From positions 1-22,648 of the IMG/VR virus record IMGVR_UViG_3300020601_000085: a stretch of 22,648 nucleotides of DNA; one strand, written 5' to 3'. Within the stretch, counting starts at the first letter, position 1. Each line of letters begins with the position of its first letter. Position numbers and translations under genes: made by a program. This DNA comes from a virus. Shown here piece by piece: positions 18,581 to 22,344 of this stretch. The notes under the pieces are model-generated. The model saw only the letters and a program-made list of their open reading frames with translations, did no database searches and was not told the DNA's origin.

Positions 18581-20059
18581 TCAAGTATAAGCATACTTTT
18601 TGGCTTTTTTGATCTCTCGCCGCCCAGTATTTAAAAGCCCAACCCCGCGAATGTTCATATCAATCACGGCATCGGCGTACTGGTTTGCGTCATGCACGTG
18701 TGAAAACTTGTTCTTGTCCGGCTTATCCTCAGTCTCTCCATTTCGCTTAATTTTATAGCGGTATCCTGACTTAAATCCTTGAACTAACATAGTACACCCC
18801 GGGTCAACAAGATACATCGCTTTGCCTTCGAGCTGCTGGTTCAACAAACGCTCAACCGCTTGAATACGTAGCTCCGGCATGTTGGTAGGGGGCCTAACGC
18901 ACTTATACCCTTCATTCTTCAAGACATCAACTAGGGACATTTCGTTCTGTTGCTGTTTCGCAAACCCCGCAGGATCAGGCGCGCAGACGAAAGTACACCC
19001 TCCCATATTGTTGGCGATAAACGGGTTGAGCCTCGTACGGACAAAAGTCTCGATGCCCATATTCTCCGATGTTAGCTCTGCTAGTGTCAACACCCGCCCT
19101 CTAGGGTCTCGTTGTTTAAACACAGCAGCAGGCGTTCGCCCAAAGTCGATGCCAATAACAACGGGGTAGTCCGCCGAGCGAATAACTTTCAGCGGCCCCT
19201 CAGAGATGTGGAAGTCAGGCACAAAAGTTTTCTCGTACACCGGAGTCCCTGAAAGTGAGCGACCGTACTCTGATCTAAGGTAAACACGCAACCAGTCCTC
19301 GGTTTTACCCGGAATCAAGTTGGGGTAATACTGCTTCGGCAAGTTGTCGTAGTTGTCAGCCTCGGGGTTAACTACCCACTCTTCACCGTCCTTGTCGAGC
19401 AGCACCTCATCAGGGTCTTCCTTGAACTTCTCTATATACCGAGCTGGTTTGATGATAGCCGCTGGCTGTTTAAAGATCGCCCAGTTACTAGGCGGCTCTT
19501 CCATCTTGTCCTGCCACCACGTATCTTCGTCTGGCATGTTGGTATCGAACAACGCACACGACCGCGTCGGCCCGCCGTCCTTCATGCTGGGGTAGCGGTT
19601 TAGACGACCGAGCAGGCCATCGACAACATCAGGGTGCAACTCTCGACTCTCGTTACCCCACAAGAACGTAGTTTCTAGTGACAGCGCTTTTCTCACGTCG
19701 TCAGGTGTATCCAGAGCAATAAACAGCCACTCTGACTCAACAACAGTGTTATCAGACAGCTTGGCTCGCAGCAAAAAAGTCTTTTCCACCGCCTTCCAGA
19801 CTCCCATTTCCCCCGGTGGGAGCCAGTCAAATACCGTTTTTCTAGTCGTTAACGCCAGCTGATCGGCAGTATTTCGGACAATAACAGCCCTAGTTTTGCG
19901 TATATTTTGAGCATTTGGGGCCTGTCCGCACGCTAATTTGACCAACTCGTGCACACAAGTGACAGATTTTCCCCCTCCAACCGGGCCTGCTAGCACCCTA
20001 ACGTATGCTTCGTCAGCCATAAAAGCCGCTTGTGTAGGGGTAGGGTTGTATGTACTCAT
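18581..20059 (-). CDS. terL: terminase large subunit
   Basis: A 492-aa packaging motor. The ATPase part has a Walker A at residues 24-32 (AGPVGGGKS, K31), a motif like the adenine-binding Q region before it and a Walker B/catalytic stretch TTFLWGNESREL at 130-141 (E137). The nuclease part is visible as three acidic motifs: VVIGIDFGRTPAAV (D305), CAPDPAGF (D362) and KFSHVHDANQYADAV (D457). It cuts concatemeric DNA and drives it through the portal with ATP. It directly follows the small-terminase candidate, with three bases between the stop and its ATG. WGNESRE in place of the common W-NEARE is a small variant of this family. Confidence 0.95.
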   Translation of the reverse strand: MSTYNPTPTQAAFMADEAYVRVLAGPVGGGKSVTCVHELVKLACGQAPNAQNIRKTRAVIVRNTADQLALTTRKTVFDWLPPGEMGVWKAVEKTFLLRAKLSDNTVVESEWLFIALDTPDDVRKALSLETTFLWGNESRELHPDVVDGLLGRLNRYPSMKDGGPTRSCALFDTNMPDEDTWWQDKMEEPPSNWAIFKQPAAIIKPARYIEKFKEDPDEVLLDKDGEEWVVNPEADNYDNLPKQYYPNLIPGKTEDWLRVYLRSEYGRSLSGTPVYEKTFVPDFHISEGPLKVIRSADYPVVIGIDFGRTPAAVFKQRDPRGRVLTLAELTSENMGIETFVRTRLNPFIANNMGGCTFVCAPDPAGFAKQQQNEMSLVDVLKNEGYKCVRPPTNMPELRIQAVERLLNQQLEGKAMYLVDPGCTMLVQGFKSGYRYKIKRNGETEDKPDKNKFSHVHDANQYADAVIDMNIRGVGLLNTGRREIKKAKKYAYT

Positions 20060-20062
20060 GTG

Positions 20063-20563
20063 TTAGTCGTCGTTATCCATGTCTATAGTAAGTGGAGGCG
20101 GCTCGGACGCCCCGCCAAGCGACACTGTACCCCCATTGATGATAATAGTGGGCAAATTCAGCATCTGCTTGTCTTTTTCTTCCTTCGGCTCTAGCCCGCC
20201 TAACTTAGAAAACGTCTTAAAAGCGTCTAATTTTTGTGCAAGTGGTGCTTTTGGGTTTTTTGCCAACACGTATATGTCGTCCATCAAGTCCTCAGCCCGC
20301 ATAGCGGCCTTAGTTTTGAACGTTATACCCTTACTCTCAAACTCAGAGCGCTTGATATTAACCTGAAGTTGGAACCACTTTTGCTTTTCTAGTTCCTTAT
20401 AGGACTCAAGACTATAGCCGTGGCGTGCTGCCACGATAACATCTTCTTCTTGCCCCAGCGCAATGCTGTTAATCATCTCACTTGGGACAGACGGGAACGA
20501 GGACTGCTGTTTTGGCCCTACCTCAAGCGGGTCATCGTCAAGATCAAGGTCTTCAGGAAGCAT
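20063..20563 (-). CDS. probable terminase small subunit
   Basis: A 166-aa protein from the ATG at 20563, which has AAGAGG upstream; a GTG at 20587 in frame is less likely. The N-terminus is acidic (MLPEDLDLDDDPLEVG). Residues about 40-80 carry GQEEDVIVAARHGYSLESYK ELEKQKWFQLQVN, which resembles a helical DNA-binding or multimerising region, followed by TFKTKAAMRAEDLMDDIYVL and KAPLAQKLDAFKTFSKLGGL and a beta-rich acidic tail ending DMDNDD. It lies immediately before terL, the usual place for terS, and the size fits. HGYS-E-Y is typical of small-terminase helix-turn-helix parts, but no exact family match can be claimed from sight. Confidence 0.72.
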   Translation of the reverse strand: MLPEDLDLDDDPLEVGPKQQSSFPSVPSEMINSIALGQEEDVIVAARHGYSLESYKELEKQKWFQLQVNIKRSEFESKGITFKTKAAMRAEDLMDDIYVLAKNPKAPLAQKLDAFKTFSKLGGLEPKEEKDKQMLNLPTIIINGGTVSLGGASEPPPLTIDMDNDD

Positions 20564-20738
20564 TTGCTGCCTCTTGCTCAGCCGCACGCTTCACAGCCGC
20601 CAGATATTTTGAGCACGCAATCCTTGTCAGCTTGCTTGCCGTGATGTTGTGGGCTTTAGCCACTTCTTTGATCTCATTGAGAAGATCGTCGGGCATAAAA
20701 AGTGTCCATCGCTTCATGTCTTTTTCTGATTCGGTCAT
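20553..20738 (-). CDS. ribbon-helix-helix DNA-binding protein
   Basis: A 61-aa protein with the shape of an Arc/MetJ/CopG repressor: a basic beta strand KRWTLFMP (about 9-16), a first helix DDLLNEIKEVAKAHN and a second helix ITASKLTRIACSKYLAAVK. The start is ATG at 20738, backed by AAGGAGG five bases upstream; the longer reading from 20771 has no ribosome site. It overlaps the terS start by 11 bases. As the first gene of the late block, beside three GTTAATAC repeats and a candidate promoter, it is well placed to repress or switch late transcription and its own promoter. That role is inferred; some small terminase-related proteins have similar folds. Confidence 0.82.
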   Translation of the reverse strand: MTESEKDMKRWTLFMPDDLLNEIKEVAKAHNITASKLTRIACSKYLAAVKRAAEQEAANAS

Positions 20739-20762
20739 GTTACCTCCTTCGTTAATACGTGC

Positions 20763-20790
20763 ATTGTACATACTTTTTATTTTGTAGCAA
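20763..20790 (-). promoter_or_regulatory. candidate sigma70-like promoter for late block
   Basis: Read leftward, TTGCTA (20785-20790) and TACAAT (20763-20768) are separated by 16 bases, close to a bacterial -35/-10 pair, and an A-rich spacer lies between. The start point would be near 20756, leaving a short leader with AAGGAGG before the ATG at 20738. It would drive the whole leftward block. No experiment supports it; a chance match in AT-rich sequence is possible. Confidence 0.42.
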
Positions 20791-20814: not shown

Positions 20815-20833
20815 TTAATACGTCACTATGGGT
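20815..20833 (+). promoter_or_regulatory. T7-promoter-like string, rightward
   Basis: The sequence TTAATACGTCACTATGGG reads like the T7 class III promoter core TAATACGACTCACTATAG with two bases missing after TAATACG and one missing before GGG. The CACTAT core and GGG start are kept. It faces the early rightward gene. Phage single-subunit polymerase promoters vary, so this could be a true phage promoter, but the changed spacing and the absence of a polymerase gene in the window make chance or another role quite possible. Confidence 0.28.
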
Positions 20834-20909
20834 AAGTTGCTGCAGCGGGCTGGGTCCACGTTAATACATACCTAAAAATTGGGCTTGCTGTATGAGCGCC
20901 TCGTAAGGC

Positions 20910-20938
20910 GGGGCGGGGGGCTGGGGTGGGGTGGGGGG
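20910..20938 (+). other. G-quadruplex motif (five G-runs)
   Basis: Five consecutive G-runs of 4, 6, 4, 4 and 6 bases (20910-20913, 20915-20920, 20923-20926, 20928-20931, 20933-20938) with loops of one or two bases. This is an exceptionally strong G4 pattern on the plus strand and C-rich on the minus strand. It lies in the control region, in sequence otherwise balanced in composition. It could stall polymerase, act as an origin or RNA element, or reflect coding of a short Pro-rich peptide on the minus strand. Confidence 0.72.
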
Positions 20939-20939
20939 C

Positions 20940-21475
20940 CCGTGGGCTAGGTCGAATCCTGTCATTGTAGACGGGGCAACCCCGATACGATTAGGTGGAA
21001 TCCTAGTCTTGAGAGTATCGCCTCTCGACCCTTCGTTTATTAACAATGTGCGGATAGTCTCGCCAGTAGTGCGCCTAGTGTTTCGCTCTCAAGCTGTCAT
21101 GGTTTCGAGTGCAAGCGCGGTAGGTCATCTGCTAGCAGTATGGGGTTATCGGTGCATTAGGGTGCGGTATTTAAAAGTTTACGGGGTATAGGTTTGCGGT
21201 AGCGCGTAAACCATTGTGCGGTAATAACGGCGCACATGACTAAGCATCCAACGCCTTCGTGCGGTGGCAAACCCATAGTGGAGCACTGGGCCACTTTGTC
21301 GGGACTGCGAATATGTGCAGACGGTAAGAGTCCGTCCATGTATAGGCCTACTGGAAAGACAGTAGCAAGTAACGCTTACTTAAAAAGAGCGGTGAGGTAG
21401 TCCGAGCGCACCAAGAACAGCAAGCGCGTAACCCCCTCGCGAGAGGGCTTCATTGTGTGTACGGTTGTGCATACA
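20940..21475 (+). ncRNA. candidate structured non-coding RNA / long leader
   Basis: This ~540-bp stretch before the first rightward gene has no credible protein gene on either strand but is rich in short perfect hairpins. Examples are CGGGG/CCCCG at 20972-20984, GAGAG/CTCTC at 21011-21026, GGTTTGCG with CGC-AAACC at 21191-21212, TGTGCG/CGCACA at 21215-21236, GACGG/CCGTC at 21320-21336, CTACTG/CAGTAG at 21348-21365 and AAGTAA/TTACTT at 21367-21381. Near the end an 8-bp helix (GCGTAACC 21426-21433 with GGTTGTGC 21463-21470, two G-U pairs) encloses CCCTC-GCGA-GAGGG (21434-21447), a tetraloop hairpin. Three six-bp stems with short loops is somewhat more than expected by chance. No tRNA, tmRNA or intron core is recognised. 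Direction is assumed from the downstream gene. Confidence 0.38.
20948..21004. repeat. 13-bp imperfect direct repeat
   Basis: TAGGTCGAATCCT at 20948-20960 recurs as TAGGTGGAATCCT at 20992-21004 with one base changed. Between the copies is a perfect hairpin CGGGG-CAA-CCCCG (20972-20984). The repeat may be a binding site pair or part of a structured RNA. Confidence 0.5.
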
Positions 21476-21507: not shown

Positions 21508-21936
21508 ATGCAAAACGCAATCGCAATCATTGAAAACGCAAACAACGGTTTAACCGTTACTATGAACGCCAAGGGTAAACAAGGCACGTTCGCTCGTGCC
21601 ATCGCCTTTGCATCTCGTGATGCCCGCATCGCATTAGGTCAGGCAATGCACCTTAAGTGGTTACAGAATGGACAGTATCGCCCACTGGTAAATGACATTC
21701 TGTCCTGCGGTCTCGTGCCTAAAGCGGCGGTGCCCTTCGTGTCTGGTCTGATTCCAACGAACGGCGCGGTTCCAAAAGAACAGTTCATCTCTCTGTGCCA
21801 AGCAGTGAAGCACGCCGTGGACAACAAGCGCAACAAAGACGGTCAGCCTGTCGAGGTTAAGGGTGAGAAAGCCTTCGTGTACGGTCTGGTCAACGCCATC
21901 GTGTCAGAAGTTACCCCACAAACTGTGGATGCTTAA
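21508..21936 (+). CDS. first rightward (early) protein, unknown function
   Basis: A 142-aa protein with a strong ribosome site (CAGGAGAG) before the ATG. It reads MQNAIAIIENANNGLTVTMN, then GTFARAIAFASRDARIALGQ, MHLKWLQNGQYRPLVNDILS, VSGLIPTNGAVPKEQFISLC and KAFVYGLVNAIVSEVTPQTV. It is soluble, mixed helix and basic, with no enzyme motif I can recognise. It is the first gene on the opposite strand to the virion block, after the long control region and before the repeat array, so it is probably an early gene, perhaps for host takeover or DNA replication control. That role is inferred from position alone. Confidence 0.8.
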   Translation: MQNAIAIIENANNGLTVTMNAKGKQGTFARAIAFASRDARIALGQAMHLKWLQNGQYRPLVNDILSCGLVPKAAVPFVSGLIPTNGAVPKEQFISLCQAVKHAVDNKRNKDGQPVEVKGEKAFVYGLVNAIVSEVTPQTVDA

Positions 21937-22021: not shown

Positions 22022-22344
22022 AATAAGACAATTAGGCAGAGGGGTATCGGCTCTGTCTTATTACAACAGGGCTCCCAAGTTGTTGATTTCATTCCAGTTT
22101 CAATCCAACCAAGTATTACAATAAGACAATAAGACAATAAGACAGTATAAATAGGCTCCCTTCGCGAGAGAAAGTTTCCGAAAACGCGCAACGCAACGCG
22201 CATAAGTTCTCAAAATCCCGCGCAGCCAAACCCATTTCCTGTCTTATTGCCTAATTGTAGTACCAGTAGTACTCGACTTTCACGGTTTCATGCGGGCTCC
22301 AAGCCCACCACATAATAAGACAGCCCCCCGAACTCTGTCTTATT
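22022..22344. repeat. array of AATAAGACA / TGTCTTATT repeats, candidate origin or operator
   Basis: The nine-base word AATAAGACA occurs on the plus strand at 22022-22030, 22120-22128, 22128-22136, 22136-22144 and 22314-22322, and its complement TGTCTTATT at 22054-22062, 22240-22248 and 22336-22344. The middle three copies form a tandem array of period 8 followed directly by TATAAAT (22146-22152). Two outer pairs face each other as inverted repeats. The 21937-22390 region otherwise has no credible gene; it also holds GGGCT-CCA-AGCCC (22294-22306) and an AACGC-rich block (22183-22200). Clustered direct repeats beside an AT-rich word are typical of iteron origins or multi-site operators. Confidence 0.75.
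22314..22344 (+). terminator. inverted repeat / hairpin before the 62-aa gene
   Basis: AATAAGACAG (22314-22323) pairs perfectly with CTGTCTTATT (22335-22344) around an 11-base loop starting CCCCCC. The stem is AT-rich at its base and made of the array motif itself, and the downstream bases (GCTGTCTAAAAAC) lack a U-run. It may act as an RNA hairpin at the end of the 21508-21936 transcript or simply be a paired binding site; the second is favoured because the motif recurs elsewhere unpaired. Confidence 0.35.

Follow-up and report, generated by a model that had tools for sequence, protein, structure and literature searches.

The window, i.e. the whole 22.6-kb virus record analysed here (22,648 nt), encodes portal, capsid and terminase on its minus strand, the terminase large subunit gene (TerL) serving as our syntenic anchor. 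A repeat-rich region follows beyond a 142-aa gene on the plus strand, for which neither Pfam nor PHROG gave a match. The features are as follows:

18581..20059, minus strand: TerL, syntenic anchor (phrog_2, E 7e-19)
21508..21936, plus strand: ORF of the 142-aa gene adjoining the proposed origin
22022..22030, plus strand: outer left iteron AATAAGACA, exact match
22030..22038, plus strand: degenerate iteron AATTAGGCA, at period 8 after the first iteron, relaxed-word match
22054..22062, minus strand: outer left inverted iteron, partner of 22022, exact match
22076..22088, minus strand: match to the IHF consensus WATCAANNNNTTR (AATCAACAACTTG), found at the corresponding place in many relatives
22120..22144, plus strand: left inner array, three AATAAGACA at period 8, exact match
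22145..22239, no strand: spacer of 95 bp between the inner arrays, beginning GTATAAATA
22145-22153, no strand: AT-rich start of the spacer, GTATAAATA, proposed as melting site from its base composition
22240..22256, minus strand: right inner array, inverted, TGTCTTATT plus TGCCTAATT, exact plus degenerate match
22286..22306, plus strand: block TTTCATGCGGGCTCCAAGCCC, similar in relatives (TATYCATGCGGGTT..AGCC), by eye
22314..22322, plus strand: outer right iteron, exact match
22336..22344, minus strand: outer right inverted iteron, partner of 22314, exact match

Iterons and neighbouring features

The initial annotation had reported eight copies of a nine-base word, five forward and three reverse, within 323 bases, and an exact-match scan of the whole window returned the same set, i.e. 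AATAAGACA at 22022(+), 22054(-), 22120(+), 22128(+), 22136(+), 22240(-), 22314(+) and 22336(-). Far less than one copy was said to be expected by chance; 0.17 copies are expected in the whole window, and eight were reached in no shuffle. All copies lie within 22022-22344, the count in the rest of the 22.6 kb, proposed as a check, being zero, and the relaxed word occurs a single time in the remaining 21.9 kb. The three tandem copies at period 8 (22120, 22128 and 22136, all forward), the two inverted pairs (22022/22054 and 22314/22336) and the intergenic position by TATAAAT were likewise as described, with this motif at 22146-22152, just inside the tandem array, and only short and unsupported ORFs overlapping the iteron region. 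While the eight exact copies stood, the earlier inventory had missed the IHF consensus at 22076-22088 and AATTAGGCA, a degenerate form of the word that occurs twice, at 22030(+) and 22248(-), both times abutting an exact AATAAGACA at period 8. Since the degenerate copy at 22248(-) adjoins the exact copy at 22240(-), the right inner array is a doublet; contig L003 carries TGTCTTATTGTCTTATT at this place.

Several further features were seen in the vicinity. A conserved noncoding region of about 600 nt (20880-21460, plus strand) is matched by homologous sequence in an equivalent position in several relatives (nhmmer) and has a consensus fold of 40 pairs, 24 of them with compensatory changes; it had no Rfam match up to E 5 and is possibly a new structured phage RNA adjoining the proposed origin. 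Its 5' part includes a G-rich tract (around 20908-20941) that is conserved in the aligned relatives and at which several of their contigs end, perhaps due to sequencing or assembly dropout. The stretch TTAATACGTCACTATGGG (20815-20832, plus strand; single copy in the window) resembles a T7-type promoter; a search for the T7-like RNA polymerase domain PF00940 gave no match, nor did it give any in control genomes. The exact sequence GTGCATACA is present four times in the last 1.2 kb of the window (21467, 22391, 22434 and 22613, all plus strand).

Conserved architecture and drifting words

A scan of viral contigs for two tandem words returned 103 stretches, and dense clusters of the relaxed word, defined as A[AT]T[AT]A[GT][AC]CA, were found in 109 contigs. 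Two inverted period-8 arrays, with a start-to-start gap of 102-125 bp, were present in 96 viral contigs, i.e. in 96 elements two sets of short iterons flank a spacer, as do 22120-22144 and 22240-22256 in the window, and this architecture also comprises outer inverted pairs and often the exact IHF consensus. The element is the conserved core of an intergenic region in a widespread family of environmental phages of about 60 kb. In most of the clustered contigs the gene order is portal, TerL, putative TerS, a gene of about 160 aa, the element, small genes and a MoxR-like ATPase. Contig L002, identical to the window, runs 6.4 kb further past the element into the early operon, which encodes a MoxR-like ATPase and a DUF2201-type protein (domains assigned from a relative's homologue). 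The early arm of the long records encodes a family-A polymerase, an SNF2-type helicase and an exonuclease of the PD-(D/E)XK superfamily; a giant protein of 2040 to 2649 aa is common to all long records compared (e.g. G001 54353-60475 and G008 44930-52879).

Conservation in relatives, another of the proposed checks, concerns the architecture, which is kept in the 96 contigs although the word drifts. Among TerL relatives, the words at this place are AATTATCCA, ATTAATCCA or AATTAGACA, sometimes mixed within one element, and the tandem pattern was found in 14 of 26 DUF927 phage records (reversed control, 0). Six long records failing this pattern were searched without assuming any word, and five of them have drifted words in a similar layout between TerL and MoxR, i.e. 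TAATATCC nine times in G015, CTATTATC nine times in G029, AATTATTG six times in G034, and looser, less regular clusters in G031 and G019; the same search gave no clear cluster in the sixth, G025. The dominant word is confined to the element in the relatives' records examined for it. A layout that is kept while the word changes is as expected of a protein-bound array.

Palindromes were also noted, i.e. GGGTWWACCC beside the right inner array in AATTATCCA-type relatives (G001-G005 and G012, by eye), and TGTGTATACACA near the origin in some relatives, with six in L212.

The IHF consensus is concentrated in the elements, with 63 matches in 37.7 kb versus 39 in the 1061 kb outside (1.67 vs 0.04 exact matches per kb, an enrichment of about 45-fold), and 22076-22088, as a match to WATCAANNNNTTR, is the putative IHF site of the window. 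The 10 nt beside the larger array have a mean AT content of 87% versus 51% for the contigs (76 distinct cores/spacers), the whole spacer having a mean of 60% over the elements and 49% in the window. Arm-type repeats combined with IHF sites are also found in the lambda attP, and the element might accordingly be read as a phage attachment site; an integrase gene would then be expected next to it, and the tyrosine-integrase domain was found in just three of 22 long records, with the gene lying about 20 kb from the element in G008, which argues against attP and makes it a very improbable reading. DnaA boxes were few (10 in 54.6 kb of element regions versus 46 in 950 kb outside), were seen in few contigs and had no fixed place, and were discarded as a component. 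The product of the neighbouring gene of about 160 aa was dismissed as the binding protein, as the same word is found alongside its non-matching variants (c11, c24 and c26), and one variant alongside different words.

A DUF927 primase-helicase as candidate initiator

No initiator gene is present in the window, as had been stated; both this record and L002 end before the place of the gene that the relatives carry in their early arm, 16-18 kb from the element in the circular records G001, G002 and G008. It encodes a DUF927 protein of about 1000 aa, which was found in all 22 long records tested, nine of which had been picked by terminase or iteron word, independently of DUF927 (9/9 positive). In the cultured phage Rollin the homologue spans 97% of the query. 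Phage P4 ori/crr has short iterons of 8-9 bp and the alpha primase-helicase as initiator, and is in these respects alike; the protein found here, in contrast, matched only DUF927 among Pfam families at E 0.01.

With a profile of ten DUF927 sequences, the helicase domain matched two initiators, the SCCmec helicase Cch (5dgk, with E 7.7e-18) and a Rep of SaPI elements (8tch, with E 3.2e-7), while the N-terminal part looks, by motif, like an archaeo-eukaryotic primase. The full-length model of 1012 aa had low quality over its helicase part (mean pLDDT 61), and a C-terminal model of 285 residues built from 36 sequences (mean pLDDT 81) was used instead. With Foldseek, only 8tch (SaPIbov1 Rep) and 5dgk (Cch) were below E 0.001, both at probability 1.00, and a second structural comparison ranked the same two first (Z 9.0 and 8.4), followed by the winged helix of TcpK (Z 8), a structure solved with oriT DNA. 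Both superpose on the model with a large rmsd of 8-10 A, perhaps reflecting domain flexibility. Based on these matches to 8tch, 5dgk and TcpK, the C-terminal domain probably folds as a winged helix resembling the one in the SaPI initiator, and the relatives are predicted to encode a Rep-type helicase with a C-terminal DNA-binding domain. SaPI Rep uses its C-terminal domain to bind iterons and is related to Cch with DUF927 (PMC7581432); other mobile elements, and Aquificae viruses as well, are known to combine DUF927 with a family-A polymerase (PMC10061031, PMC7689252).

Some covariation of word and protein was seen in the 25 genomes with both element and DUF927 protein. In all ten genomes whose words are exclusively of the GAC type, the wing residue 978 (Q-x-R-C) is A, S or V, and genomes with TCC-type or mixed words have Q, T or H there; this position, second-ranked among the DUF927 protein columns, was picked out before testing and is confounded by ancestry. 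In Mantel tests the word correlated significantly with most proteins, none being singled out, which is probably due to ancestry. The covariation is a lead and only suggestive.

Interpretation as a replication origin

The reading of the repeats as a phage replication origin with iterons is supported by these data. Because the architecture rather than the word is conserved, the word is confined to the element, IHF sites and AT-rich DNA by the larger array are present, and an initiator-type DUF927 helicase is found throughout the family, we consider it likely that the element is the replication origin of this phage family and would be bound by the DUF927 helicase together with IHF. GC skew, suggested as a marker, was abandoned, as it did not mark the site consistently and is confounded by the divergent genes.

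A packaging site of the pac or cosB type, in which the iterons would be small-terminase sites with IHF about 2 kb upstream of TerL, is an unlikely alternative on balance. The lambda cosB likewise joins repeated protein sites (R sites) and an IHF site near the terminase genes, and the element is only about 1.5 kb from the putative small-terminase gene. However, identical words occur with two small-terminase groups kept apart by clustering (c4 and c6) and different words with TerL proteins that are 85% identical. The element differs from cosB in its independence from the small-terminase group as well as in symmetry and number of sites. Moreover, contig ends accumulate 0.5-1.5 kb upstream of TerL, in several cases at the G-rich tract, and not mainly at the element, a concentration that may be an assembly effect; and an initiator would better account for the many sites, placed symmetrically on either side of a spacer that has an AT-rich step.

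The other suggestion of the initial annotation, a multi-site operator, here widened to an operator or enhancer at which a phage repressor or activator would control the early operon, appears less probable still. The element does lie upstream of the divergent early operon, and a ribbon-helix-helix (Arc-like) gene is present at 20553-20771 (minus strand; it overlaps the start of the putative small-terminase ORF), but the corresponding cluster (c25) is found in few element-bearing records, sigma-70-like promoters are no commoner than chance, and it would be unusual for a dimeric repressor to have overlapping sites that are not palindromic and are set at period 8 in two inverted arrays. An operator role alongside that of an origin is possible.

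For the origin, we infer binding, melting and firing at the element as follows. The iterons would be words of 8-bp period in two main opposed arrays about 100 bp apart plus outer inverted pairs, bound by the C-terminal winged helix of the phage DUF927 primase-helicase, while a bend between the outer and inner sites would be made by IHF or by a host protein with the same site. The helicase could then form two oppositely oriented assemblies, which would melt the AT-rich stretch next to the larger array and be loaded onto the strands, and bidirectional replication would start with the phage's own primase domain and the family-A polymerase.

The closest parallel is offered by the PICI/SaPI origins of staphylococcal phage satellites, such as the SaPIbov1 rep-ori, in which two iteron sets flank an AT-rich region (PMC6092414), AT-rich DNA being found here mainly next to the larger of the two arrays. 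Their initiator belongs to the DUF927/SaPIbov1 Rep group and has a C-terminal DNA-binding domain (PMC7581432), as is predicted for the candidate initiator of the phages. In contrast, the replicon of the long records is a phage of about 60 kb with its own terminase, portal and family-A polymerase, the element has outer inverted pairs and IHF sites, and the word drifts within the family. Furthermore, PICI origins lie directly 3' of the initiator gene, and since the gene is 16-18 kb away here, the element is set outside PICI/SaPI membership; by analogy, it would work like these origins, as a variant with IHF sites in a large phage. The SCCmec Cch/Cch2 system has a helicase homologous to the DUF927 protein and short direct repeats, and several such elements have a family-A polymerase nearby (PMC10061031), as does the phage family. 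At the putative SCCmec origin, in contrast, the iterons next to the Cch2 gene number three and are 5 nt long (PMC7581432), versus about 8-13 words of 8-9 bp here.

It is tempting to speculate that an organisation regarded as PICI-only serves a widespread phage family as its standard origin, with IHF as an addition, the initiator gene set apart, and words and winged helix drifting together, a proposal to which we give even chances. If true, the family would be a natural series for the recognition code of self-loading replicative helicases and would bear on where PICI replicons came from. For a phage group that is abundant and of which few members have been cultured, the proposed origin and its candidate initiator form a testable pair, which would extend the self-loading helicase system of PICI/SCC elements to large phages, the drifting words in a conserved layout being a natural experiment on origin recognition by such helicases.

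A megablast of the window against phages gave no match. Two cultured relatives, Rhizobium phage RHph_TM3_14A and Pseudomonas phage Rollin, open the family to experiment. A 770-bp noncoding gap of RHph_TM3_14A contains two inverted IHF consensus sites and no period-8 array, and in Rollin a noncoding region rich in repeats includes one of period 8, CGCAGTGG, at 1087-1115.
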